A program made the position numbers and the translations under genes. A stretch of 64,000 nucleotides of DNA, from the NCBI GenBank assembly GCA_019112875.1, contig DXIO01000049.1, positions 1-64,000 of the forward strand, read 5' to 3'. A model generated the notes under the pieces. That model was given only the letters and a program-made list of their open reading frames with translations. It did not search any database and was not told the DNA's origin. Source of the stretch: Candidatus Aquabacterium excrementipullorum (GTDB lineage Bacteria > Pseudomonadota > Gammaproteobacteria > Burkholderiales > Burkholderiaceae_C). Position 1 is the stretch's first letter. Every line of letters begins with the position of its first letter. Below are positions 1 through 14,259 of the stretch, one piece after another.

Positions 1-147
1 GCGATGGCGTGCGCCGATGGGCGGCCGCGCAGCTTGGCGGTGTGCTGGCTGCCGCAGGACAGACAGCCCAAGATCCCTTTGCTTAATGGCCTTGCCCATA
101 CTTGAGTGATCCAGCAGAAGTGGCCTAACGCAATGTAGACGACCAAA

Positions 148-184
148 ACGTCCCCTAACCTTGGAATCCAAGGTTAGGGGACGT
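148..184. repeat. Perfect 18-bp inverted repeat, terminator-like on minus strand
   Basis: The left arm ACGTCCCCTAACCTTGGA (148-165) is exactly complementary to 167-184, with a single A at the centre. On the minus strand the hairpin is followed by TTTT (complement of 145-148), the layout of an intrinsic terminator for minus-strand transcripts, for instance those of the operon ending at 646. The unusual length and perfection would also fit the end of a mobile element or a protein-binding dyad. Confidence 0.6.
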
Positions 185-374
185 CCATGTCGGATAACCT
201 GGCGCAGCAATTGCAGCCAAGCTACTTCCCAAGTCGGTGATTGAAAGCATGTCTCCCTCCCAGGTTGTTGAACATGCCGTTACAACACTATAGCCTTGGA
301 ACGCCAAACCCTGGCACGTCAACCTCCAGACATGAAGCGCCGCCCTTTCCTGCTGACGCGCGATGCAGCACAGC

Positions 375-600
375 CTGAAGCGTCATGATCCAACACCTGA
401 CGCTTCAGCAAAGAAGGGTGGCGTGTCGAGCCGTGACACCTGACGCTCCACTGCCTGATGGTGGCGCTTCTCCAAAAAAGCCCGACGCGTCAGCATCCAG
501 CACATGGAGTGCGAGCATCCAACACCTGAAGCCTCAAGCTCCACTGCATCGCACTGCACACCCACAACGTCGCGCTTGGGGCTCACACCACTGACGCTCC
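375..600. repeat. Cluster of degenerate short repeats
   Basis: Several words recur: ATCCAACACCTGA at 388-400 and 517-529; ACACCTGACGCT at 393-404 and 436-447; GCTCCACTGC at 445-454 and 538-547; TGACGCTCC at 441-449 and 592-600. CTGAAGCGTCA (375-385) and TGACGCTTCAG (398-408) form an 11-bp inverted pair with a 12-nt loop. The copies are diverged and not evenly spaced. No protein-coding interpretation fits. It could be a decayed repeat family or a structured RNA. Confidence 0.45.
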
Positions 601-645
601 GCCCTTTTGTGTTTTGCGGTAGGGCCATGCGGGCAACGGATGGGC

Positions 646-1551
646 CTAGGCGCCCACCGCCAGCACATCCCAATGCCCTACGGTCAGGGCCAACTCCCCC
701 TGCCGCAGGTCATCTGCTCGGCCTGCCAACCAGGCAGATGCGGTGGCCGATTCGCCGATGTTCACCTCCGACGCCACGGCGGCGGCCTCCTGAGCCATTG
801 CCAGCAGCATGTCAGGGTGGTCCGCGCCGATGCGCCAGTCACTGCGGTCGGTGCTGACACGGTAACCCTGCGCCGCCAGCCTCTCCGCCAGGTAGCTCGC
901 GGCCTGCCCCCCTAGCGACTCACCAAATCCCTTGTCGCCCGCCTGATGCGCCAGGAAGGCGTGGGTGATGCGTTCATCCGCTTCCCGTGGCGGGTGCCAT
1001 GTGCGCCGGCCATCCACCGTCAAGGTCGCGAGCAAGGGGCGCCGCTTGTCCGCCAACAGGGCGCACAGCCTGTCCAGCCAGGCGGCCGACACCAAGTCCA
1101 GGAAAGCCGTCGTCACCAAGCCATCACACCAAGACAGATCGATCTGCTCCAGATCGCGCGCCAGATCGAGTTGTTGTCCGCGCACCTGCCAATGGGCCGT
1201 GCCCGTATCGATCCTCAGAACACCGCTTTGATCCTGGCAAAGCCAACCTCGCTGCCGCGCCCAGCCTGAGATCTCCGTGCGTTGCGCAACGAGCAGCAAG
1301 GGATCATGGTCAACGAGGATCCAATCCTGATCGGCCTGCAGCACGGGCGCCAGTGCGCGCAAGTTCGCGCCCGCCCCTGCTGCCAGGTCGATCAGCCGCA
1401 AAGCCTCGCCAGCCCTGGGCTTGAGTGCGGCCTTGAAGCCCTGGGCCAATGCCTGGCTGCGCGCGGCCATGTCCAGCGGCTCTCGCAGCCGCAACCAGTC
1501 GGCAGAAAAACCGCCCGCAGGCACTTGTTCGGTCATCGTTGGTTCACTCAT
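646..1551 (-). CDS. Class I SAM-dependent methyltransferase, last gene of the pterin-like operon
   Basis: The 301-aa protein has a Rossmann-type methyltransferase core: the SAM-binding motif I reads DLAAGAGANL at about residues 55-65, followed by an acidic motif II (VDHDPLLL). The rest has no close feature I recognise, so the substrate is unknown. Its start overlaps the end of the upstream glycosyltransferase gene by 4 bases (ATGA), which implies translational coupling and membership of the seven-gene operon from 7247. An in-frame ATG five codons downstream is an alternative start. By inference it methylates the sugar or ring of the product made by the upstream enzymes. Confidence 0.8.
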   Translation of the reverse strand: MSEPTMTEQVPAGGFSADWLRLREPLDMAARSQALAQGFKAALKPRAGEALRLIDLAAGAGANLRALAPVLQADQDWILVDHDPLLLVAQRTEISGWARQRGWLCQDQSGVLRIDTGTAHWQVRGQQLDLARDLEQIDLSWCDGLVTTAFLDLVSAAWLDRLCALLADKRRPLLATLTVDGRRTWHPPREADERITHAFLAHQAGDKGFGESLGGQAASYLAERLAAQGYRVSTDRSDWRIGADHPDMLLAMAQEAAAVASEVNIGESATASAWLAGRADDLRQGELALTVGHWDVLAVGA

Positions 1552-2597
1552 CGGCTCACCTGATCCAGGGCGCTTGCCCAGCGCGCCACGGCAGTGCCCC
1601 AGTCAGGCAATGTGGCGGCGGCCTTTGCTGCGCAGGCCGTCAACCGGGCCCGCAGCGCGGCATCCGTCATCAATTGCCGCAAGGCGTCGCGCAAGGCCGC
1701 TTCGTCGCCCGGGGGCACCAGCAGCGAGGCAGCGGCAGGCACCGTGTCGGCGATGGCACCCGCCGTGGTGGACACGACGGGCAGCCCATGGGCCAGCGCC
1801 TCCGCGAAAACCATGCCGTAGCCCTCGTGGTACGAGGGCAGCACGAAGGCATGCGCCTGCTGGTAGGCCTGGGCCACGCGTTCGGCCGGCTGTTCACCCA
1901 GCAGTGTGATGCGGTCTTCGAGGCCGTGCGCCGCGATGGCTTGTTGCAGGGCCTGGGCCTCGGCGGGGTCGCGCTCAAGGCTGCCGATGCAGGTCAGTTG
2001 CCAGGGCAGATGGCGCAGCGGTGCCAGCGCATCGACCAACAGGCGATGGCCCTTGCGAGGGGTGATGGTGGCCACGGCCAGCAATTGCAGGGGGCCATCG
2101 CTGCGCGGCCGGTGAAGGCGCGCGGGCTTGTGCGTGCCGGGTGCCACCACGGCCACGCGGTGGGCAGGCAGGCCACTGGCGCGCACGGCACGGGCCGTGT
2201 GTTCGCTGGGGCAGATGGCGCCTTTCAGGTGCGGCCACAGCGCGGCTTCCAGCTCGGCGTAGTGGCGCGCGCTGGCCGCGCTTTGCCCTGTCTCCAGCGA
2301 CAGCGGGTGGTGGATGAAGCCCACCAGGTGCAGCCGTTGGGCGTGCTGGGACAAGCTGTCTGCCAGGCCAGGCAGCGCCAGCCCGTCGATGATCACGGTG
2401 CGGCCATCGGGTTGGCGGGCCAGGGCCTCGGCGGCGGCCTGGCAGGTGTCGGTGTCTGCGTCAGGGTAGCGGCCCGGCAACTCGACCACGTCGACCGCCC
2501 TGCCCTGCTGGCGCAGGCCCTCGACCACGTGGCGGTCGTACAGGTAGCCACCGGTGAGCTGGTCCAGCCGGCCCGGCACCAGGAAGCCCAGCGCCAT
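1548..2597 (-). CDS. Family 4 glycosyltransferase (GT-B fold)
   Basis: The 349-aa protein has GT4 hallmarks: a glycine-rich N-terminal start (GGYLYDRHVVEGL), a central VATITPRKGHRLLVDAL segment typical of the donor-binding domain, and the EX7E motif in EGYGMVFAEAL near residue 260. GT4 enzymes transfer a sugar from a nucleotide donor with retention; donor and acceptor cannot be told from the sequence. There is no signal peptide or membrane segment, so it should act in the cytosol. The start codon shares one base with the stop of the upstream PTPS-like gene (TGATG) and the end overlaps the methyltransferase start. Confidence 0.88.
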   Translation of the reverse strand: MALGFLVPGRLDQLTGGYLYDRHVVEGLRQQGRAVDVVELPGRYPDADTDTCQAAAEALARQPDGRTVIIDGLALPGLADSLSQHAQRLHLVGFIHHPLSLETGQSAASARHYAELEAALWPHLKGAICPSEHTARAVRASGLPAHRVAVVAPGTHKPARLHRPRSDGPLQLLAVATITPRKGHRLLVDALAPLRHLPWQLTCIGSLERDPAEAQALQQAIAAHGLEDRITLLGEQPAERVAQAYQQAHAFVLPSYHEGYGMVFAEALAHGLPVVSTTAGAIADTVPAAASLLVPPGDEAALRDALRQLMTDAALRARLTACAAKAAATLPDWGTAVARWASALDQVSR

Positions 2598-3001
2598 CAG
2601 CGCAGCGGGCCTTCGAAGGCGGCCCAGGCCACGGGCGATTCACGCAGCACCACGCGCAGGGCGGCCAGGTTGCCGGCGGTGCCCGGGCCCACGGCGCCTT
2701 CGGCCACACGGGTCTTCACGCGCTGGAAGATCTCACCGGCCAGGAACTCGGTGGTGGTGTTGCGGCCCTTGAACACGGGCAGCTCATCGAGGTTCTGGTA
2801 GTTGAACTCGCTCAGCACATCGCGCAGCAGCTCGAGCGCCAGGCCGATGTCGCACACCAGGCCGTTGTCGTCCAGCGCGGGGCGGCGGAACTCGATCTCC
2901 ACGCCGTAGGTGGCGCCGTGCACCTTTTGAGCAGGGCCGAAGACTTCACCGCGGAAGCTGTGGGCGATCATGAAATGGTCGGAAACGGCGAGGCTGTACA
3001 T
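2597..3001 (-). CDS. Divergent 6-pyruvoyltetrahydropterin synthase / QueD-family protein
   Basis: The 134-aa protein follows the PTPS fold end to end. The first zinc histidine is present (FMIAHSF), but the usual HGH pair reads VHGATYG, so the third zinc ligand is Ala. The catalytic Cys four residues before HGH is missing (AQKVHG), and the DHH triad region reads SEFNYQNLDE. The pterin-anchoring Thr/Glu region (NTTTEFLAGEI) and the C-terminal Glu (VLRES) are kept. It probably binds a pterin-like ligand but is unlikely to run the standard QueD or PTPS reaction. A normal queD lies at 14262-14636, so this is not the queuosine enzyme. Confidence 0.85.
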   Translation of the reverse strand: MYSLAVSDHFMIAHSFRGEVFGPAQKVHGATYGVEIEFRRPALDDNGLVCDIGLALELLRDVLSEFNYQNLDELPVFKGRNTTTEFLAGEIFQRVKTRVAEGAVGPGTAGNLAALRVVLRESPVAWAAFEGPLR

Positions 3002-3016
3002 GGGGGGGTTTTCCGG

Positions 3017-3988
3017 TCAGTTGTAGTGGATGACGTGGCAAAGCGCATCGCCCGGCGCTTCGGCCAGGCGCGACAGGGTGCGAGGCAGGTCGCCGAAGGG
3101 GCTGTCACCGGTGAGGAAGTGATCGAACACGGGGTCGGCCAGCAACGTCAAGGCCAGCCCCAGCCGCCGTGCGTAGCTCCAGCGGGCGCGCTGCGCCGTG
3201 GCCACCGAACCCACCTGGGAGGAGCGCAGGTTCAGGCGCCTGGCGTGAAAGGCTTCGCCCAATGGCACGGCGACGGCACGGTCGCCATACCAGCTCATTT
3301 CCAGCACCGTGGCCTCGAAGCCTGCGATGCGCAAGGCTGTGCCCAGGCCATCGGGGTGACCGCTGGCGTGGATGACCAGGTCGGCCTCCGGGGTGGCTTC
3401 GTCAGGGGTGGCGAAACGGCAGCCCAGCCGGGCGGCGAGCGCGGCGCGGGCAGGGTTGGTGTCGATCAGCTCGACCGTGGCGCCGGGAACGCGGGCCGCC
3501 AGCGCCGCCACGAGGCCACCGACCACGCCGGCGCCGATCACCGCGATGCGGTCGCCCAGACGGGGGGCCGCATCCCACAGGCCGTTGAGGGCCGTCTCCA
3601 TGTTGGCCGTGAGCACGGCGCGCGCATCAGGCACGGCGTCGGGCACGAGGGTGACGGCATCCTCCGGCACGATGTAGTGGTCCTGGTGGGGATGCAGGCA
3701 GAACACCCGGCGGCCCAGCAGGTGCGGCGGCCCCGAGACCACGCGGCCAACGGAGGCATAGCCGTACTTCACCGGCCCGGGGAAATCACCTTCCTGGAAC
3801 GGGCAACGCATGGCCTGCCATTGGCTCTGCGGCACACCGCCCCGAAACACCAGGCTTTCGGTGCCACGGCTGATGCCGCTGTGCAAGGCTTGAACCAGGA
3901 CTTCGCCAGCACAGGCCTCGCGCAAGGTGGCGCTGCGGATCTCACCGACCCCGGGCGCCACTGTCCAGAATGCGCGCGCCTCAGTCAT
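3017..3988 (-). CDS. MDR-family zinc-type alcohol dehydrogenase-like oxidoreductase
   Basis: The 323-aa protein is a medium-chain dehydrogenase: a GroES-like N-terminal half with SGISRGTESLVF near residue 40, then a Rossmann NAD(P)-binding fold with VIGAGVVGGLVAALAA near 150. SGISRGTE is shared with the BchC-like branch of the superfamily (bacteriochlorophyllide hydroxyethyl dehydrogenase), but no photosynthesis genes are present. The structural zinc cysteines are not visible. Its start lies inside the end of the upstream RibD-like gene (8-base overlap). By context it oxidises or reduces an alcohol on the operon's intermediate. Confidence 0.82.
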   Translation of the reverse strand: MTEARAFWTVAPGVGEIRSATLREACAGEVLVQALHSGISRGTESLVFRGGVPQSQWQAMRCPFQEGDFPGPVKYGYASVGRVVSGPPHLLGRRVFCLHPHQDHYIVPEDAVTLVPDAVPDARAVLTANMETALNGLWDAAPRLGDRIAVIGAGVVGGLVAALAARVPGATVELIDTNPARAALAARLGCRFATPDEATPEADLVIHASGHPDGLGTALRIAGFEATVLEMSWYGDRAVAVPLGEAFHARRLNLRSSQVGSVATAQRARWSYARRLGLALTLLADPVFDHFLTGDSPFGDLPRTLSRLAEAPGDALCHVIHYN

Positions 3989-4796
3989 GGAAGGCGCATT
4001 CGATCATGGTGTCATCGCCCAGCAGGAAGCGGCGCGTGCGCGGACGCAGGCTGTGGGACAGGTCGTGGATCTCCGGCAGGACCAGGCTGGGGCGGCCGGA
4101 ACCCATGATCACCGGCGCCACGGTGATCTGCAGCCGGTCGAGCGCCCCCGCGGCCAGGAAGCGTGACACGGTGATGCCACCGCCTTCGACGAACAGCCAG
4201 TGCAGGCCGCGCTGAGCCAGCGTGCGGCGGATCTCGAACGGGTCCAGTCCCTGCTCGCCACGCAAGATCGGGATCACCTCGGCCTGGCCGCAGCGGGCTT
4301 CTCGGCCGACGCGGTCAGCCGCGACCAGCAGCAGCGTGGGCGCCTTGCCATCGGTGAACACCTTCTGGCTGCCATCGAGGCGCCGCTCGGGATCCAGGAT
4401 CACCCGCACGGGGTGGTCGCCCGCGCACAGGCGCACGGTGAGCTGCGGATCGTCGTGCTGCACGGTGCTGGCACCGACGAGCACGGCATCGGCGATGGCA
4501 CGCATGCGGTGCGTGTGCAGCAGATCTTCGTCACCGCTGAGCCAGCGCGACACGCCGCAGGTGGTGGCGATGCGCCCATCCAGGCTTTGCGCCAGGTGGC
4601 CGACCACATAGGTGCTGCCGCGCCGACGCATGGCGCACAGCGGACCATACAGGGCATGCAGCAGCGAATCGTCCTGCAGAAACGGGACGCCGTGGTCCCC
4701 GGGCGATCCCTGGCGCAGCAGGGCCTGCCATGCGTGGTCTTCACCGCGCAGGGCGATCTGGCCCGGAGGGCTCAGGAGCACGGGCGAGGCCGTCAT
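3981..4796 (-). CDS. RibD C-terminal-domain (pyrimidine reductase / DHFR-like) protein
   Basis: The 271-aa protein carries the RibD reductase domain from about residue 60: SLDGRIATTCGVSRWLSG, then AIADAVLVGASTVQHDDPQL and, near the C-terminus, LFVEGGGITVSRFL and APVIMGSGRPSL. These are the family's substrate and NADPH sites. The zinc deaminase domain of bifunctional RibD is absent; an unrelated stretch of about 60 residues precedes the reductase. Reductase-only relatives reduce the ribosylamino side chain of the GTP cyclohydrolase II product before any deamination. Here it sits with ribA and pterin-type enzymes, suggesting a branch away from riboflavin. The start overlaps the preceding gene by 4 bases. 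Confidence 0.87.
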   Translation of the reverse strand: MTASPVLLSPPGQIALRGEDHAWQALLRQGSPGDHGVPFLQDDSLLHALYGPLCAMRRRGSTYVVGHLAQSLDGRIATTCGVSRWLSGDEDLLHTHRMRAIADAVLVGASTVQHDDPQLTVRLCAGDHPVRVILDPERRLDGSQKVFTDGKAPTLLLVAADRVGREARCGQAEVIPILRGEQGLDPFEIRRTLAQRGLHWLFVEGGGITVSRFLAAGALDRLQITVAPVIMGSGRPSLVLPEIHDLSHSLRPRTRRFLLGDDTMIECAFHD

Positions 4797-6586
4797 TCGG
4801 CCGCCCCCGCGGGTGCGGCAGCCGCCAGCCCCGCGCTGGCGAAGGGCGTGAACAGCACGGTGTACTCGGGCTTGTCAGGCAGGCGCGCCTCTTCGGGGAT
4901 GCGGCACAGGTTGCTGTCGGCCAGCCAGCGCCCCAGGCGCGGGTCGGCGCTGACCACGGCCAGGGGAATGGCACCCGCCAGGCCGGCGACGAAGGGCAGC
5001 CACAGCAGCCAGGTGTCGGGGAACACCTGCAGGAAACCCAGGCCCATCACAAGGCCCAGCAGCGTGTGCACCCACAGCCGCTGCGCGGCCGCGCCGAAAG
5101 ACAGGCCCACGGCATCGCGCTGTTGCGCTGTCCAGCCGATCTGGCGCCCGAAAGGCAGGCCCAGCATGAACAAGGTGATCGAGACGGCGGCAATGGGCGC
5201 CATCAGCATCGAGAAGCCGACTTCGAGCGCAGCGCTGAGCAGGATGCGCACGGTGCCGCCGTAATCACGCCGCAGCCCGGGGCGCATCAGCACGTCGCCG
5301 AGCGTGGCGAACTTGGGGGCGAAGCACATGGTCATGGTCGCGGCGAACAGTACCTTGAACAAGGTGAAGTCGGCGGGCGGCTCTCGCAGCAGGCCCAGGG
5401 CGATCATACCCAGCCAGGCCGGCGCGCCCACGTACATGGCGATGGCCAGCCAGAGCTGGCACCGGCTGACCGGGAGCAGCCCAGGCATCTTGAGGAGCTT
5501 GAGGTACTGCAGGTTGCCCTGGCACCAGCGCAGATCGCGGCGGATGAACTCCGGCATGGTGGGCGGGTTCTCTTCCCAGCTGCCGTCTTCATCGGGCAGC
5601 ACGCGCACCTCGTAGCCGGCGCGGCGCATCAGCACGGCCTCGAGCTGGTCGTGGCTGAGGATGTGGCCGCTGAGCGGCGAATCGCCGGGCAGCACAGGCA
5701 GGTGGCAGTGCTCGGTGAAGGGCGCCAGGCGCAGGATGGCGTTGTGCCCCCAATAAGGGCCGCAATCGCCCTGCCAGCTGGCCGCGCCCAGTGTGTACGA
5801 GCGCATGCCCAGGCGCATGCCGAACTGGAACACCCGTGCGAACGGGCTGGTGCTCGGCAGGCCGGTCACCAGCGTCTGCAGGATGCCGATCTTCTGGTTG
5901 GCCTGCATGATGCGTACCAGACGCAGCATGGCCGCGGAGGTCATCACGCTGTCGGCATCGAGCACGATGGCGAAGCGGTGCAGGGTGCCCCAGCGCTCGC
6001 AGAAATCGCGGATGTTGCCAGCCTTGTAGCCTTCGTGGCTTTCACGGCGGCGGTGGGTGATCTGGAGCTGCGGGCCGAAGCGCTCTGACAGGCGTGCGGC
6101 CACCTGCTGCTCACCCTCGATGATCTCGGGCAGATCGCTGTCGCTCAGCATGTAGAGGTGGAACCAGCGCGACTGACCGGTGCGCACCAGACCATCGAGC
6201 ATGAAGCCCAGGTTGCGCTCCAGGCGGTCGGTGTCCTCATGGCGGATGCAGACCAGCAGCGCGGTGGAGCCGGTGAGGGGCTCGTCACCCCGGATGCTGC
6301 GCAGGTGCGGCGCCACCAGGCCCGCCGGATCGCGCGTGAAATGCATCAGGTAGAAGCCGATCACGGCGTTCCAGAAACCGATGGTGGTCCAGGGCAGGGT
6401 CAGCGCGAACAGCGCCAGGATGCTGACACCCAGTGCATCGACGCCCTGGGCGAACAAGGCCGTGGCCATCAGGCCCAGCAGCAGCAGCGCCGTGCCGATG
6501 ACCAAAGAGGCGAACACCACGCGCCGACGGCGCAGGGTTTCTCGTGCGGCGACGGAGGCCGCCGCGAGTTGGAATGCATTGGGCAT
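4793..6586 (-). CDS. OpgH/MdoH-like membrane glucosyltransferase (GT2)
   Basis: The 597-aa protein resembles the glucan glucosyltransferase OpgH: two N-terminal membrane segments (about residues 25-85), a GT2 catalytic domain with the LDAD acidic motif, QGDCGPYWGHNAILR, EDGSWEENPP and the Q/RXXRW-type motif DLRWCQGN, then several membrane segments from about 390. E. coli OpgH is about 850 residues; the long N-terminal part is missing. No opgG partner is in the window. Its place between ribA and the RibD-like gene suggests it polymerises or transfers glucose onto the operon's product rather than making ordinary periplasmic glucans, but this is inference. Confidence 0.85.
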   Translation of the reverse strand: MPNAFQLAAASVAARETLRRRRVVFASLVIGTALLLLGLMATALFAQGVDALGVSILALFALTLPWTTIGFWNAVIGFYLMHFTRDPAGLVAPHLRSIRGDEPLTGSTALLVCIRHEDTDRLERNLGFMLDGLVRTGQSRWFHLYMLSDSDLPEIIEGEQQVAARLSERFGPQLQITHRRRESHEGYKAGNIRDFCERWGTLHRFAIVLDADSVMTSAAMLRLVRIMQANQKIGILQTLVTGLPSTSPFARVFQFGMRLGMRSYTLGAASWQGDCGPYWGHNAILRLAPFTEHCHLPVLPGDSPLSGHILSHDQLEAVLMRRAGYEVRVLPDEDGSWEENPPTMPEFIRRDLRWCQGNLQYLKLLKMPGLLPVSRCQLWLAIAMYVGAPAWLGMIALGLLREPPADFTLFKVLFAATMTMCFAPKFATLGDVLMRPGLRRDYGGTVRILLSAALEVGFSMLMAPIAAVSITLFMLGLPFGRQIGWTAQQRDAVGLSFGAAAQRLWVHTLLGLVMGLGFLQVFPDTWLLWLPFVAGLAGAIPLAVVSADPRLGRWLADSNLCRIPEEARLPDKPEYTVLFTPFASAGLAAAAPAGAAE

Positions 6587-6596
6587 GCGTACTGCC

Positions 6597-7247
6597 TTAT
6601 TCGCTGATGGCCAGGGTATCGGGCAGTGCGTGGCCCATGCGTGTGCGCTTGGCTTCGAAATAGCCGACCGAATGCTGGTTGGGCACGGTGATGACGGGGC
6701 GTCGGCGCTCGACCTGCACGCCCAGCGCCGTGAGCTTGGCCACCTTGTCGGGGTTGTTGGTCATCAGGCTGATGCTGGGCACGCCGAAGTGGGCCAGCAT
6801 CTCGGGCACGACTTCGTACGAGCGGGCGTCGTCGGGCAGGCCCAGCGCACGGTTGGCATCGACGGTGTCATAGCCCTGCGACTGCTGCAGGTGGTAGGCG
6901 CGGATCTTGTTGGTCAGGCCGATGCCACGGCCCTCCTGGCGCAGGTACAGGATGATGCCGGCGCCCAGGCGGACGATCTCGGCCTTGGCCTTGTCCAGTT
7001 GGTCGCCGCAATCGCACTTCAGCGAACGGAACACCTCGCCGGTGATGCATTCGGAATGCACGCGCACGGGCAAGCCGGCCTTGCCGGTGACATCGCCATA
7101 GACCAGGGCGATGTGCTCGCGAAACCCTTCGGTTTCATTGGTGCTGGTGGTTCGGAACACGTGCATGGTGAACAAGCCATGCTCGGTGGGTAATTCGGAT
7201 GAGGCCAGCCATTGGGAATGACGGGATGGCGCGGAGGGGCTCGACAT
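6597..7247 (-). CDS. ribA: GTP cyclohydrolase II
   Basis: The 216-aa protein is a full-length stand-alone GTP cyclohydrolase II, converting GTP to 2,5-diamino-6-ribosylamino-4-pyrimidinone 5'-phosphate, formate and pyrophosphate. It has the zinc-binding cysteines in HSECITGEV and SLKCDCGDQL, and the catalytic RQEGRGIGLTNKIRAY segment. There is no dihydroxybutanone-phosphate synthase domain. AGGAAA lies nine bases before the ATG. As the first gene of the seven-gene operon it supplies the pyrimidine precursor; whether it also serves riboflavin synthesis depends on other copies outside the window. Confidence 0.95.
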   Translation of the reverse strand: MSSPSAPSRHSQWLASSELPTEHGLFTMHVFRTTSTNETEGFREHIALVYGDVTGKAGLPVRVHSECITGEVFRSLKCDCGDQLDKAKAEIVRLGAGIILYLRQEGRGIGLTNKIRAYHLQQSQGYDTVDANRALGLPDDARSYEVVPEMLAHFGVPSISLMTNNPDKVAKLTALGVQVERRRPVITVPNQHSVGYFEAKRTRMGHALPDTLAISE

Positions 7248-7586
7248 ACTGGTTTATTTCCTGACTTGTGCCTGACGTGTGCGTTTGCGACGCCTCTGAG
7301 ACCTTTCAGATGCGCACCCAGCCGGGATGACCGGGTTGCATATTCAGAATATCTGCGCAATGGTCGCACGTCACGCAAAAACCGTGGAATCCATGAGTTG
7401 TTACACCCTGACAAATCAATGGTTCGCCAAGGTTCGCATTTTCAGCCATGGCCGCTATAACTTATCTCCTGGGCGACTGAGCATTTGTCATATGGATATG
7501 CGCATTTATTGAATGGTCTTTACACCCATATAAGGGGGTAATAGTTGCCTTTTGAAATACCGCTACACGACACCTTCCAAATTCAT
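7248..7586. other. Leader and promoter region of the ribA operon, AT-richer than surroundings
   Basis: No gene. These 340 bases are visibly richer in A and T than the flanks and separate ribA from the MocR gene, both transcribed leftward. A palindrome, ATATTC-A-GAATAT, lies at 7340-7352, about 90 bases upstream of ribA, in a place suited to an operator. I looked for an FMN-riboswitch signature and did not find it. I cannot fix a promoter with confidence. Confidence 0.5.
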
Positions 7587-9041
7587 TCAACGCAGCGCAT
7601 CCACCAGGGTTTGCACATGCCCGTCCACGGCCGCCTGCGGCACGTGCGCATAACCCATCACCAAGCCGTTGAACCCTGCCGCCCCGCCCGGCGTGCCGTA
7701 AGAGGACAAGGGCCGCGGGCTCAGTCCCAGCGCCCACGCCCGCTCGGCCACCTCTGCATCGGGGTGGTCGGCCGGCAGGCTGAGCACCAGGTGCATGCCG
7801 CCCTGCCCGCCCAGCACGGCACCGTCGAGAGGCCAATGGCGTGACAGCGACTCGCGCAGGGCCTGCTGGCGCGCCGCATACAACCGGCGCATGCGACGCA
7901 GGTGTCGGGCGAAGTGCCCCTCATGGATGAAGGTGGCCAGCGCACGCTGCTCGGCCACGCGGCCCTGGCGCACCAGTTCGCCGACCACGGCCACGGCCCG
8001 ATCCGCCAGAGCGGCCGGCATCACGATGAAGCCCAGGCGCAAGCCGGGGAACATGGATTTGCTGAAGGTGCCGAGGTAGACCACCGGGGCATCGTCCACC
8101 AGGCCCTGCATCGCGGCCAGGGGCGGTCCGTCGTGGCGGAACTCGCTGTCGTAGTCGTCCTCCAGGATCCAGGCGCCGTGGCGGCGCGCCTGCTCCATCA
8201 GGGCCAGCCGCCGGGGCAGGGTCAGCACCGAGCCCAGCGGGTACTGGTGCGACGGCGTGGCGTAGACCAGGCGCGGCGCTTGGGTATGCCACAGCGACTC
8301 CATGGCCTGCTGCCCCTCGGCATCGACGGTGATGGGCACCGGCACCAGGCCGGCGGCGGCGAAGGCCGTGCGGGCACCGCCGTAACCCGGGTGCTCCATC
8401 CAGACGCGCTCACCCGGGTCGGCCAGCAGGTGGGCGCACAGGTCCAGGCTGTGCTGGGTGCCGTCGGTGACGATCACCTGGTCGGCCTGGCAGCGCACGC
8501 CGCGCGCGGCGCGCAGGTGGGTGGCGATGGCCTGGCGCAGTTCTGGCTCGCCCACGGCGTGGCGATACCCCAGGTCTTGCGAACTGGCTTGGCGCTGGGC
8601 ACGCTCCAACAGCTGGCGCCAGAGCGCGAACGGGAAGGCATCGAGCGCCGGCGTGCCGGGCATGAAAGGACGAAGGTCATCTTCCGGGTGGCGCACACGG
8701 CCCCGGCCCGCCACGCGCTGCGACAAGGCCGGGCCGGTGGCTTGCTCGATGGCCTGCCGCGCGGGGCGCTCCGGCGCGGCACCCAGGGCCGCCACCACCG
8801 TGCCCTGTCGGCTGGTCTGCACATAGCCTTCGGCGCCCAGTTGCTCGTAGGCATGGATGGCGGTGTTGCGGGCGATGCCCAGATCCTGCGCCAGCACGCG
8901 GCTGGCGGGCAGCAGCGCGCCGGCCTGCAAGCGGCCGTCGAGGATGGCGGCACGCAGCGCCTGGTAGAGCCGGCGCTGGGCAGGCACGGATTGCCGGCGT
9001 GCGAACTGTCGGCGGTCGATCACGAGGTCCAGGTCGGCCAT
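7587..9041 (-). CDS. MocR/PdxR-type transcriptional regulator (GntR HTH + aminotransferase fold)
   Basis: The 484-aa protein has an N-terminal GntR winged helix (LYQALRAAILDGRLQAGALLPASR, residues about 24-50) joined to a fold-type I aminotransferase-like domain (VTDGTQHSLDLCAHL; YATPSHQYPLGSVL; the PLP-lysine region YLGTFSKSMFPGLR). This is the MocR architecture, in which PLP acts as effector. It is divergent from the FMN split-barrel gene at 9162 across 120 bases, the usual arrangement for a MocR protein and its target, so it probably controls that gene. Confidence 0.92.
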   Translation of the reverse strand: MADLDLVIDRRQFARRQSVPAQRRLYQALRAAILDGRLQAGALLPASRVLAQDLGIARNTAIHAYEQLGAEGYVQTSRQGTVVAALGAAPERPARQAIEQATGPALSQRVAGRGRVRHPEDDLRPFMPGTPALDAFPFALWRQLLERAQRQASSQDLGYRHAVGEPELRQAIATHLRAARGVRCQADQVIVTDGTQHSLDLCAHLLADPGERVWMEHPGYGGARTAFAAAGLVPVPITVDAEGQQAMESLWHTQAPRLVYATPSHQYPLGSVLTLPRRLALMEQARRHGAWILEDDYDSEFRHDGPPLAAMQGLVDDAPVVYLGTFSKSMFPGLRLGFIVMPAALADRAVAVVGELVRQGRVAEQRALATFIHEGHFARHLRRMRRLYAARQQALRESLSRHWPLDGAVLGGQGGMHLVLSLPADHPDAEVAERAWALGLSPRPLSSYGTPGGAAGFNGLVMGYAHVPQAAVDGHVQTLVDALR

Positions 9042-9161
9042 CGGGCCATGCTCCTTGTGGTTCCATCAGATGGATGGATTCTGGTTCTGTGCATGGTGCC
9101 ATGAAAGGCCTATCGTTCAAGCCATCGCACCCCACCAGCCAAGCCCACAGGAGCCCCGAAG

Positions 9162-9824
9162 ATGTCGATCAGCGCCAGCCCGATCACGGCCATGCCCCCC
9201 TCCGACCGCAGCCGCGTGCGGCGCGCCGCGGAACGCGCCCACTATGACCAGGCCACCGTGCACGCCATCGTGGATGCGGCCTGGGTGTGCCATGTGGCCT
9301 TCAACGATGGCGACCACGTGGTCTGCATCCCGACGGCCAGCTGGCGCGTGGGCGACACGCTGTACGTGCATGGCTCCAACGGCAGCCGCATGATGAAGCG
9401 CCTGGCCGAGGGCGCGCCCGCCTGCGTCACCATCACGCACGTGGACGGGCTGGTGATGGCGCGCTCAGCCTTCTCGCATTCGATGAACTACCGCTCGGTG
9501 GTGGTCCACGGCCGCTTCAGCGCCGTGCCCGAGGATGCCAAGGCGGCCGTGCTCGATGCATTGATGGACCACATGGCCCCCGGCCGGCGCGAGCATGCGC
9601 GGGCACCGGACGAGTCCGAGCTCAAGGCCACGACGGTGCTGGGCATCCCCTTGCTGGAGGCCGCAGCCAAGATCCGCAACTGGGGGCCGCGCGACAAGGA
9701 CGAGGACCTGGCCCTGCCGGTGTGGGCCGGCGTGCTGCCCTTGCGCGAGCAGCGGCTGCCACCCGTGGACGAGCCGGGCTTCGACGGGCCGGTGCCTGCG
9801 TATGTCAGCCGTTGGACAGATTGA
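9162..9824 (+). CDS. Pyridoxamine 5'-phosphate oxidase-family (FMN split barrel) protein
   Basis: The 220-aa protein matches the family of split-barrel flavoproteins found next to MocR regulators: VCHVAFNDGDHVVCIPTASW, LYVHGSNGSRMMKRLAEGAPACVTITHVDG, and a central SHSMNYRSVVVHG. True PNPOx substrate residues cannot be confirmed. AGGAGCCCCGAAG precedes the ATG and supports this start. Divergent from the MocR gene; the downstream flavodoxin-like gene begins 35 bases later on the same strand and could be co-transcribed. Confidence 0.87.
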   Translation: MSISASPITAMPPSDRSRVRRAAERAHYDQATVHAIVDAAWVCHVAFNDGDHVVCIPTASWRVGDTLYVHGSNGSRMMKRLAEGAPACVTITHVDGLVMARSAFSHSMNYRSVVVHGRFSAVPEDAKAAVLDALMDHMAPGRREHARAPDESELKATTVLGIPLLEAAAKIRNWGPRDKDEDLALPVWAGVLPLREQRLPPVDEPGFDGPVPAYVSRWTD

Positions 9825-9858
9825 AGCCCATGGCGCGCAGCCGGTCTATGCTGCGCGC

Positions 9859-10359
9859 ATGAGCTCCACCAAGACCCTGCTGATCGTCTACCACTCCATG
9901 ACCGGCGGCACGCGCCAGATGGTCGAAGCCGCGCGCGAAGGCGCAGCGGCGGAAGAAGGCCTGGCCGTGCGGCTGCTGGAGGCCGCGCAAGCCGGCCCGG
10001 ATGATGTGCTGGCCGCCGATGGCCTGGTGTTCGCCACGCCAGAGAACCTCGCGGCCATCAGTGGTCGGTTGAAGGACTTCTTCGATCGCAGCTATTACGC
10101 CGCGCTGGACCGCCTCAACGGCCGGCCGTACGCGAGCATGGTGTGCGCGGGCAGCGACGGGCACAACGCCGTTCGGCAGATCGAACGCATCGCCACCGGC
10201 TGGCGACTCAAGCCCGTGGCCGAACCCCTGATCGTGTGCACGCACGCACAGACGCCAGAGGCCATCCTGGCGCCCAAGCACATCGGTGAAGACGATCTGG
10301 ACCGCTGCCGGGCGCTGGGCGAGGCCATGGCGGCCGGAATGGCCCTGGGCGTGTTCTGA
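9859..10359 (+). CDS. Flavodoxin-fold NAD(P)H-dependent oxidoreductase
   Basis: The 166-aa protein starts with a classic flavodoxin FMN-phosphate loop, IVYHSMTGGTRQMVEAA, followed by FATPENLAAISGRLKDFFDRSY, as in WrbA/flavodoxin relatives. It should bind FMN and act as a small cytosolic reductase; the substrate is unknown. The frame stays open further upstream, but the ATG at 9859 places the FMN loop in its normal N-terminal position. Confidence 0.82.
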   Translation: MSSTKTLLIVYHSMTGGTRQMVEAAREGAAAEEGLAVRLLEAAQAGPDDVLAADGLVFATPENLAAISGRLKDFFDRSYYAALDRLNGRPYASMVCAGSDGHNAVRQIERIATGWRLKPVAEPLIVCTHAQTPEAILAPKHIGEDDLDRCRALGEAMAAGMALGVF

Positions 10360-10438
10360 CACTGGGCGAGCGCCGTCGGCGCATCAGACGAACCCGGAAT
10401 CGCGCAAGGTCGGATTGCACGTCAGGGTCGACCCTCCC

Positions 10439-10696
10439 TCAGCCTCCCGCCGACTGCTGATCGATCCATTGCGTGGCGGCGGCGAAGCCGTGGTCCTGCG
10501 CATCCTGGATCAGGGCAAAGCGCCTGCCTTGCGTGTCCACGGCAACCTCCTCCTGCGTCTCGGAGCCGCGCACATAGGCCTGGACGACGAACTGTCGCGC
10601 CGCCACGTCCCAGGCCGTGACCACGCGGATGCGCAAGCCGGCGTGGGCGCCGATGGCTTCTTCGTGGTCGTCGCTGTGGATGACTTGGTGGTCCAT
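10439..10696 (-). CDS. Hypothetical protein, 85 aa
   Basis: A small acidic protein without signal peptide or membrane segment that I do not recognise. GGGAG lies six bases before the chosen ATG (MDHQVIHSDD). An internal beta-rich run (RIRVVTAWDVAARQFVVQAYVRG) suggests a small folded domain. It is convergent with the flavodoxin gene and divergent from the DUF2630-like gene. The frame is open well upstream of the ATG, but that part has no coding character. Confidence 0.6.
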   Translation of the reverse strand: MDHQVIHSDDHEEAIGAHAGLRIRVVTAWDVAARQFVVQAYVRGSETQEEVAVDTQGRRFALIQDAQDHGFAAATQWIDQQSAGG

Positions 10697-12190: not shown

Positions 12191-12886
12191 TCAGGGCAGG
12201 CTCAGCGACTGCGCCAATTGCGCCGGCTCGGCCGACGGGTCCCAGCCCCAGTGCGCCAACTGCGGCGCCTGCAGGTGATCGCGCAGGGTGCGCAGGTTGG
12301 CCTCCTGCTCCGGCATGCCGGCATCGACCACGTTGGCCACCCAGCCGGCCAGCGTCAGGCCGCGCGAGACGATGCTCTCCTGCGTGAGCAGCGCGTGGTT
12401 CAGGCAGCCCAGGCGCAGGCCCACCACCAGGATCACGGGCAGGCGCAGACGCTGCGCCAGGTCGGCGCTGGAGGCGAACTCGCCCGGCCCTTCGTGCAGC
12501 GGCACGATGAAGCCGCCCGCGCCTTCCACCACCACCGCATCGGCGTGCTGGCTGAGCGCATGGAAACTCGCCTCGATGTGGCCGATGTCGATCACCGCGC
12601 CGGCATTGCGCGCGGCGATGTGCGGCGACACGGCATCGGGCAAGGCATACGGGTTATCGAAGGCCGGCGGCACCTTCAGGCTGGAGGCGGCGCGCAGCGC
12701 GGCCACGTCTTCGTTGAGCCACTGGCCAGGATGTCCGTCCACGCCCTCGATCCAGTCGCAGCCGGCGGCCACGGGCTTCATGCCCACCACGCGCGGGTGA
12801 TCACGGCGCAGTGCATGGATCAGGGCACAGCTGGTGCGGGTCTTGCCGACGCCGGTGTCGGTGCCGGTGACGAAATAGGCGGTCAT
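12191..12886 (-). CDS. bioD: Dethiobiotin synthetase
   Basis: The 231-aa protein has the P-loop GTDTGVGKT at residues 7-15, the substrate lysine in GMKPVAAGC and the conserved VVEGAGGFIVPL. It closes the ureido ring of dethiobiotin from diaminopelargonate, CO2 and ATP. Its start overlaps bioA by 4 bases. bioB and bioF are not in the window. Confidence 0.96.
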   Translation of the reverse strand: MTAYFVTGTDTGVGKTRTSCALIHALRRDHPRVVGMKPVAAGCDWIEGVDGHPGQWLNEDVAALRAASSLKVPPAFDNPYALPDAVSPHIAARNAGAVIDIGHIEASFHALSQHADAVVVEGAGGFIVPLHEGPGEFASSADLAQRLRLPVILVVGLRLGCLNHALLTQESIVSRGLTLAGWVANVVDAGMPEQEANLRTLRDHLQAPQLAHWGWDPSAEPAQLAQSLSLP

Positions 12887-14259
12887 GGCACGGGCACCTC
12901 GGTGGCCTGGGCGCTGGCGGGGCCTTCTTCGGCCAGCACGCGGTCGAGCACGCGCAGCGCGCCTTCGGCCAGGTGGCGTTGCTCGGCCTCGCCCAGCACG
13001 TAGGGCGGCATGAAGTACAGCGTCGGGCCGATCGGGCGCAGCAGCAGGCCTTCGTCGAACGCGGCGCGGTGGTAACGCGAAGCGAAGGTGGGGTCGGCCA
13101 CGTCCACATCCCAGGCCCAGACCATGCCCAGGCGGCGCGAGGCCTTCACGCGCGGGTGGTCGGTGATGGGCTGCACAAGTTCATCGAGCTGCTCGGCGGT
13201 GCGGCGGTTGTCGCCCAGCACATCGCTGCCTTCGAAGGTGTCCAGCACGGCCAGGGCGGCGCGGCAGGCCAGCGGGTTGCCGGTGTACGAATGCGAGTGC
13301 AGAAAGCCGTGCGTCGTGCGGTCGTCCCAGAAGGCCTGGTAGACCTCGTCGGTCGTCAGCACGGCCGAGAGCGGCAGCACACCGCCCGTCAGGCCCTTGC
13401 TCAGGCAGATGAAATCAGGCTTGATCGGTGCGCCGTCATCGCCCAGGGCCTGCTGGTGCGCGAACATCGTGCCCGTGCGCCCGAAGCCCACGGCGATCTC
13501 GTCGGCGATCCAGTGCACCTGGTACTGGTCGCACAGGCGGCGCACGGCACTGAGGTAATCGGGCAGGTACATGCCCATGCCGGCCGCGCCCTGGATCAGC
13601 GGCTCCAGGATGATGGCGGCGATCTGCGCGTGGTGTTCGTCGAGGTAGGCGGCCAGCGCGTCGATGCAGTGCTGCGTGTGCTCGGCGGGCGACACGCCAG
13701 GCGCGGCATGGCGCGGGTCGGGCGATGGCAAGGTGGCGCTCAGGCGCAGCAGTGGTGCGTACGATTCGCGGAACAGCGGGATGTCCGTCACGGACAGGGC
13801 TCCGGCGGTCTCGCCGTGGTACCCACCCTGCAAGCCGATGAAGCGGTGCTTGCCTTCGCGCCCACGGTTGCGCCAGCTGTGCGCGCTCATCTTCAGCGCG
13901 ATCTCGGTGGCGCTGGCACCATCGCTCGCATAGAAGGCGTGGCCCAGGCCGGTGAGCTGGCCCAGGCGCTCGGACAGTTCCACCACCGGGGGGTGCGTCA
14001 GGCCGGCCAGCATGATGTGGTCGACCTTCTGCAACTGGTCGGCGATCGCCTCGCGGATGGGCGCGAAGCCGTGGCCGAACAGGTTCACCCACCACGAGCT
14101 GACGGCATCGAGGATGCGGTGCCCGCGGTCATCGATCAGCCAGGGGCCCTGCGCCGACACGATGGCGCGGGGCGGGTGGGTGTCGTGCACCTTCATCTGC
14201 GTGCACGGGTGCCAGACGGCCTGGCGACTGCGTTCAGACCAATCCATGTGAGCCGCCAC
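12883..14259 (-). CDS. bioA: Adenosylmethionine-8-amino-7-oxononanoate aminotransferase
   Basis: The 458-aa PLP enzyme makes 7,8-diaminopelargonate using SAM as amino donor. It shows HPCTQMK near the N-terminus, DAVSSWWVNLFGH, the PLP-Asp region WIADEIAVGFGRTGTMFA and the Schiff-base lysine in FICLSKGLTGG. It starts two bases after the queD stop, so queuosine and biotin genes share an operon here. Confidence 0.96.
   Translation of the reverse strand: MAAHMDWSERSRQAVWHPCTQMKVHDTHPPRAIVSAQGPWLIDDRGHRILDAVSSWWVNLFGHGFAPIREAIADQLQKVDHIMLAGLTHPPVVELSERLGQLTGLGHAFYASDGASATEIALKMSAHSWRNRGREGKHRFIGLQGGYHGETAGALSVTDIPLFRESYAPLLRLSATLPSPDPRHAAPGVSPAEHTQHCIDALAAYLDEHHAQIAAIILEPLIQGAAGMGMYLPDYLSAVRRLCDQYQVHWIADEIAVGFGRTGTMFAHQQALGDDGAPIKPDFICLSKGLTGGVLPLSAVLTTDEVYQAFWDDRTTHGFLHSHSYTGNPLACRAALAVLDTFEGSDVLGDNRRTAEQLDELVQPITDHPRVKASRRLGMVWAWDVDVADPTFASRYHRAAFDEGLLLRPIGPTLYFMPPYVLGEAEQRHLAEGALRVLDRVLAEEGPASAQATEVPVP

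Follow-up and report, generated by a model that had tools for sequence, protein, structure and literature searches.

What do seven closely packed genes headed by a gene for GTP cyclohydrolase II make in Candidatus Aquabacterium excrementipullorum? The genes lie at positions 646 to 7247 of the first 64,000 nucleotides of contig DXIO01000049.1 (assembly GCA_019112875.1), the stretch of DNA studied here and hereafter called the window. An initial annotation, made from the sequence alone, proposed that they form a single operon that diverts a riboflavin precursor into a glycosylated pteridine- or pyrimidine-type metabolite. We found that the operon is real and conserved, and that five of its genes recur together in other phyla. 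The cassette is kept in many unrelated bacteria, and its product is probably an envelope molecule that resembles a pterin and carries sugar. Full-text searches of open-licence papers gave no account of the cassette, which, as far as the literature was searched, is without an assigned product.

All seven genes are on the minus strand, and their open reading frame coordinates agree with the initial annotation: neighbors overlap by 1 to 8 bases or are separated by gaps of 10 and 15 bases. From the first gene to the last, they are as follows (aa, amino acids).

6597-7247, minus: RibA-type GTP cyclohydrolase II, 216 aa, first gene; PF00925 199 bits, TIGR00505 218.5 (cut-off 205.85)
4793-6586, minus: OpgH/MdoH-like membrane glycosyltransferase (GT2), 597 aa, 10-base gap after RibA; NF003958 526.7 bits (cut-off 419)
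3981-4796, minus: RibD-type reductase without a deaminase domain, 271 aa, core, 4-base overlap with GT2; RibD_C 130 bits
3017-3988, minus: MDR-fold dehydrogenase, BchC-like in sequence, 323 aa, core, 8-base overlap with the reductase; BchC model 55.3 bits
2597-3001, minus: PTPS-like T-fold protein of the SCO6650 family, 134 aa, core, 15-base gap after MDR; PF01242 81 bits
1548-2597, minus: GT4 glycosyltransferase, 349 aa, core, 1-base overlap with the PTPS-like gene; PF00534 (Glycos_transf_1) 106 bits
646-1551, minus: class I S-adenosylmethionine (SAM) methyltransferase, 301 aa, last gene, core, 4-base overlap with GT4; assigned by the fold of a predicted model

The core genes and their distribution

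As judged from the sequences compared, the conserved unit is a five-gene core (the reductase, the MDR dehydrogenase, the PTPS-like protein, GT4, and the methyltransferase), and RibA and GT2 are optional. An alignment scan of species-genome contigs for the PTPS-like protein gave at least 523 confirmed stretches, the best 80 of which were taken as loci. A tblastn search of these 80 loci with the window proteins (E ≤ 1e-4) found MDR in 79, GT4 in 77, the methyltransferase in 73, the reductase in 72, GT2 in 26, and RibA in 18. The set was enlarged to 116 loci with 20 loci from a further genome search and 16 plasmid loci, and was searched with extra queries at E ≤ 1e-6 and a coverage filter. MDR was then found in 111 loci, GT4 in 109, the methyltransferase in 103, and the reductase in 98, whereas GT2 and RibA were found in only 36 and 33; the seven-gene unit of the initial annotation thus gives way to the five-gene core, and its pairing of PTPS-like with RibD-like proteins is borne out by the 98 loci that have both. 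Many cassette loci end at contig borders, and complete cores were counted only where more than 4.5 kb of flank was available on each side; all five genes were present in 56 of 62 such loci from the contig set, 13 of 19 from the genome-search set, and 9 of 16 from the plasmid set.

The core recurs in Pseudomonadota, Acidobacteriota, and Actinomycetota, and as it is found together in other phyla, the grouping of these genes is not due to chance. The PTPS-like gene was found in 27 of 398 Pseudomonadota genomes (E ≤ 1e-20, host genome counted), 8 of 199 Acidobacteriota genomes (search center counted), 9 of 61 genomes of a set of relatives (at least 60% identity, host genome counted), and 21 of 72,556 plasmid records. 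The nearest named locus is that of Aquabacterium soli, whose PTPS-like protein is 93% identical. In public plasmid records, the cassette proteins are annotated as queuosine, riboflavin, and glucan enzymes. When the search center, already counted as locus L117, was subtracted from the eight Acidobacteriota matches, seven extra loci were left, several of them on short contigs: MDR, GT4, and a CDP-alcohol phosphatidyltransferase (see below) were each found in 6, the methyltransferase in 5, RibA in 4, and the reductase in 3, and one locus had the PTPS-like gene without other core genes. No further cassette gene was found in 21 same-genus loci of 3.2-3.4 kb that matched PTPS only weakly and were regarded as QueD-type. 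The loci labeled Verrucomicrobia, Gemmatimonadetes, and Chitinophaga come from metagenome-assembled genomes, in which the binning may be wrong.

Several single loci depart from the common pattern. Two Streptomyces plasmid loci (L179 and L183) carry the PTPS-like gene with no further core gene within 9 kb, and in both a MEKHLA-domain gene, cupins, and a metallo-hydrolase are nearby. A haloarchaeal plasmid (L157, positions 5897-10551) encodes MDR, a PTPS-like protein with HSH kept, GT4, the methyltransferase, and a class V aminotransferase, with no RibD-type gene in view. Two unannotated Staphylococcus phage records (OR849993.1 and OR844990.1) also have a PTPS match (31%), which could reflect contamination or be a QueD.

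The encoded proteins and the riboflavin genes of the host

The host genome has its own riboflavin set. Contig C22 encodes a RibD with both domains and a RibD_C match, riboflavin synthase, lumazine synthase, and a RibB with a degenerate GTP cyclohydrolase II half; all were read by eye except the RibD_C and GTP cyclohydrolase II matches. The degenerate half of this RibBA (locus L003) was seen by eye to be without the zinc cysteines and the GRG motif, and a second RibA, on contig C55 and 47% identical to the window RibA, is therefore probably the housekeeping enzyme. The genome thus has a GTP cyclohydrolase II other than the window RibA, and with a separate riboflavin set present, the operon is an extra branch and not riboflavin synthesis.

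The window RibA itself has the marks of a GTP cyclohydrolase II: the zinc cysteines in HSECITGEVFRSLKCDCG (CDCG), the motif RQEGRGIGL, and the Tyr of NKIRAY. It is 88% identical to the RibA of two Aquabacterium loci and 73-77% identical to the cassette RibA of Zoogloea and of one other non-Aquabacterium locus. The 33 cluster RibA rows include 32 that are readable at the Tyr position (L123 is not); Tyr is kept in 30, and two Streptomyces copies have Met.

The reductase, 271 aa long with RibD_C alone, has for its best solved relative 6p8c, a 2,5-diamino-6-ribosylamino-4(3H)-pyrimidinone 5'-phosphate reductase. Lys151 of Bacillus subtilis RibG was reportedly found by Chen in 2009 to select the deaminated product. 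At this position, the RibD chains 2b3z and 2hxv have Lys, 6p8c and 2azn have Asn, and the window reductase has His66; Lys occurs in none of 98 cassette reductases, all of which have Gln or His. Without this Lys, the substrate of the reductase is probably the 2-amino compound, with the same ring end as is held by a pterin site. Together with the separate riboflavin set and the missing deaminase domain, this indicates that the initial annotation was probably right about the diversion of a riboflavin precursor. The MDR dehydrogenase, at 55.3 bits, is far short of the BchC model cut-off of 291.25; the nearest folds to its predicted model (pLDDT 93) are polyol and other MDR dehydrogenases.

The PTPS-like protein belongs to the family of SCO6650, the one close solved structure (3d7j), as judged from full-length similarity (profile E 1.5e-54) and the signature FGPAQ..HGAT. 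In PTPS proteins, the HGH of the zinc motif stands in one of the signatures CxxxHGH, CxxxxxHGH, or ExxHGH, and the function of PTPS subfamily V is described as unclear (PMC5041015). In place of CxxxHGH, the window protein has FGPAQxxHGAT, with Ala24 at the position of the catalytic Cys; H14 and H28 of the zinc motif H..HGH are kept, and the third His is replaced by Ala30. Each of the two replacements by Ala is found in at least 90% of the PTPS-like sequences, that of Ala30 both among 32 sequences and among 117. Five residues (H14, H28, D51, E85, and E121) are invariant in all 32, and E121, near the C-terminus, is at the position of the pterin-anchoring Glu of PTPS and QueD. The paper on the SCO6650 structure is said to describe no zinc, no triad, and no PTPS activity, but a retained pterin-like site. 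The Glu of the pterin site is thus retained, whereas the catalytic machinery of PTPS has been lost.

The window GT2, the sole OpgH-like GT2 of the host genome, resembles the glucan synthase OpgH/MdoH in that it passes the cut-offs of NF003958 (526.7 versus 419) and NF003962 (479.4 versus 328); it scores below those of further MdoH models (e.g., NF003963, 683.4 versus 884). It differs in its partner: OpgG/MdoG (PF04349) had no match in the host genome, although the Escherichia coli control was positive, and an osmoregulated-glucan operon is thereby ruled out for this genome. Among 18 genomes with the cassette GT2, MdoG was not found in 11, six of which are of unstated completeness; the 18 exclude five of 11 later-searched genomes or records, which are without the cassette GT2. 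In two of the seven genomes that have both (G437, locus L164, and G454, locus L114), MdoG directly adjoins GT2, in what looks like a true mdoGH pair. For this reason, both loci were recoded as GT2-absent in an independent-pairs kinship test; they stay GT2-present in the 116-locus, 88-locus, and flank-filtered counts.

GT4 has an EX7E-type motif (E258 and E266, each kept in at least 90% of 110 sequences). Its 58 matches include the tetrahydrobiopterin glucosyltransferase 5ze7, a weak match (E 2.2e-4) far from the best. The methyltransferase had no Pfam match at E ≤ 0.001; its predicted model (mean pLDDT 95) has a class I SAM methyltransferase fold, and fold searches with the model gave no substrate hint. 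The two glycosyltransferases and the methyltransferase of the initial annotation are thus upheld, the former by family matches and the latter by its modeled fold.

Envelope genes and the proposed route

Other genes recur beside the core. Among the 116 loci, we found the CDP-alcohol phosphatidyltransferase (PF01066) in 47, a sulfatase-like gene in 33, cytochrome b561 (PF01292) in 28, FkbM in 22, LPG-synthase-TM (PF03706) in 15, and creatininase in 11; the recurrent membrane protein annotated as a sulfatase had no Pfam match. Clustering of the open reading frames of the cassette loci gave 28 recurrent unassigned gene groups and revealed YceI (PF04264) in 24 loci, 23 of them with the CDP-alcohol enzyme, and a protein without a Pfam match that by eye looks secreted or like a lipoprotein (e.g., L049, 7161-8102) in 22 loci, 19 of them with GT2. 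Envelope-type genes and the OpgH-like GT2 recur near the core in varying combinations. In a set of 88 loci, 3 had both GT2 and the CDP-alcohol enzyme, 28 only GT2, 39 only the CDP-alcohol enzyme, and 18 neither (Fisher p 9e-8, a value that ignores kinship, from which the opposition is not independent), and 18 of the 31 with GT2 also carried cytochrome b561. The CDP-alcohol enzyme, cytochrome b561, YceI, and LPG-synthase-TM beside the core point to the envelope. With the same queries, none of these genes, nor creatininase, the sulfatase-like gene, or FkbM, was found in the whole window, and the envelope link was therefore invisible to the initial annotation.

From the protein families, the residue changes, the conserved linkage, and the separate riboflavin set, we infer a route by which the cassette would divert the first riboflavin intermediate into a non-flavin, pterin-type envelope molecule, and we put its probability at about one half. 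GTP cyclohydrolase II would give 2,5-diamino-6-ribosylamino-4(3H)-pyrimidinone 5'-phosphate, which the stand-alone reductase would convert to the ribityl compound with the 2-amino group retained. The MDR dehydrogenase would then oxidize a secondary alcohol of the ribityl polyol, most simply at C2', to the 1'-deoxy-2'-keto compound, the same one that GTP cyclohydrolase I reaches via an Amadori shift. The PTPS-like protein would grip the 2-amino-4-oxo-pyrimidine end, and closure with the 5-amino group, which is probable, would yield a 7,8-dihydroneopterin-type pterin. Glycosylation by GT4 and methylation by the methyltransferase would follow. In cassettes of the window type, the OpgH-like GT2 would lengthen the sugar and export it through the membrane; cassettes of the other branch would couple the molecule to lipid by means of the CDP-alcohol phosphatidyltransferase. 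The initial annotation thus keeps its direction, a diverted precursor and a glycosylated pterin or pyrimidine, without its seven-gene unit.

A fuller version of this route is tentative and, on balance, unlikely: a second way to pterins that bypasses GTP cyclohydrolase I. In it, C1' reduction, C2' oxidation, and ring closure would be the joint work of GTP cyclohydrolase II, the reductase acting on the ribosyl group, and a dehydrogenase of polyol type; the pterin, glycosylated and methylated, would be anchored on a membrane lipid or on glucan and would serve in redox reactions or signaling at the envelope, from Pseudomonadota to Acidobacteriota and Actinomycetota.

Equally doubtful is that the ring is never closed. 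The PTPS-like protein, without the catalytic Cys and one zinc His, would then only bind the substrate or hand it on, MDR would oxidize the sugar or the chain end, and the product would be a glycosylated, methylated 2,5-diamino-6-ribitylaminopyrimidine, perhaps linked to lipid or glucan. No lumazine-synthase-like ring former was noticed by eye among the 28 unassigned groups, which were not the object of a targeted search. However, free 5-amino-6-alkylaminopyrimidines are unstable in air (textbook chemistry), and if MDR produced a ketone at C2', this should cyclize with the 5-amino group. Less probable is that the product is soluble, a pterin glycoside of the cyanopterin or limipterin kind that serves as a cofactor, screen, or photoreceptor pigment. 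Pteridine glycosyltransferases are on record (PMC5683033), and GT4 shares its class with 5ze7, although the match is the weak one noted above. The membrane genes nearby would then have to be incidental, yet the CDP-alcohol enzyme (47 of 116 loci and 6 of the 7 Acidobacteriota loci) and YceI (24 of 116) recur across phyla.

Somewhat less likely again, and drawn by analogy with mycofactocin, which is likewise glycosylated and methylated, would be a lipid- or glucan-anchored redox carrier paired with cytochrome b561. The frequencies of cytochrome b561 (28 of 116 loci, and over half of the GT2 loci of the 88-locus set) and of YceI would fit such a carrier, but cytochrome b561 was not found in 88 of the 116 loci or in the window, the two genes share none of the 24 YceI loci, and no enzyme that would use the carrier was identified. 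That the genes are an ordinary spare operon for riboflavin and osmoregulated glucan is hardly credible in spite of the canonical RibA and the GT2 that passes an MdoH model, as the operon has no deaminase domain and no further riboflavin gene, MdoG was not found, and the core is conserved without RibA or GT2; the full riboflavin set elsewhere in the genome rules out its riboflavin part.

If the proposed route is true, it would explain the role of SCO6650-type proteins and why additional genes for GTP cyclohydrolase II and creatininase are retained by some bacteria, and would predict a new envelope molecule traceable by fluorescence and mass spectrometry.

Around the operon, no promoter-like sites were found at window positions 1-9200, where the count of terminator-like sites was not above that of shuffled sequence, and there were no Rfam matches across the window. 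Close to the contig end, on the 3' side of the operon, there is an 18-bp inverted repeat free of mismatches around a 1-base loop, together with a cluster of short repeats (148-184 and 374-607); the cluster contains direct and inverted copies of ACACCTGACGCT and similar sequences. Upstream are a MocR-type regulator (7587-9041), encoded on the operon's strand, and, facing the other way, a pyridoxamine-oxidase-like gene (9162-9824). The regulator gene was present in 1 of 80 loci searched with the window proteins and 1 of 116 with the wider query set, and is thus probably unrelated to the cassette. Two genes at 12191-14259 resemble bioD and bioA, as judged by eye.

Comparison with known systems

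The toxoflavin operon likewise combines GTP cyclohydrolase II, a RibD-like protein, and a methyltransferase, but is not known to have glycosyltransferases, MDR, or a PTPS-like protein. The archaeal and fungal 2,5-diamino-6-ribosylamino-pyrimidinone 5'-phosphate reductases (Rib7 and the Methanocaldococcus jannaschii RED) are of the same fold family as the window reductase, with probably the same substrate, no deaminase domain, and no Lys at the RibD position. In contrast to the archaeal and fungal riboflavin branch, whose order of steps is given in PMC8256712, no deaminase and no lumazine or riboflavin synthase follows in the operon. The main text of a 2026 review of bacterial pterin signaling does not contain the terms cyclohydrolase II, glycosyl, RibD, or PTPS (PMC13259868).

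A further parallel lies in the creatininase family, one member of which, BrbF, is described in PMC9478397 as a formamidase that removes a formyl group to give the 2,5-diamino intermediate. The 11 cassettes with creatininase-family genes thus carry a plausible deformylase, although BrbF serves riboflavin and no creatininase gene was found in the window. A strict link between this gene and the Met-type GTP cyclohydrolase II was rejected: creatininase accompanies both Met-type copies but also 6 of the 30 Tyr-type RibA, and 9 of the 11 creatininase cassettes have a Tyr-type enzyme or no GTP cyclohydrolase II in reach. The Tyr/Met switch alone therefore cannot account for creatininase. The Met-type GTP cyclohydrolase II SCO6655 reportedly yields a formylated product, and its gene lies near that of SCO6650 in Streptomyces coelicolor.

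The closest comparison is with SCO6650 itself, a PTPS homolog of unknown function that is of the same family as the window PTPS-like protein over its full length. To our knowledge, earlier work on SCO6650 and SCO6655 treats single proteins. In the Streptomyces plasmid cassettes L152 and L185, MDR, the PTPS-like protein, GT4, the methyltransferase, creatininase, and a GTP cyclohydrolase II with Met in place of the Tyr of the window RibA are found together.

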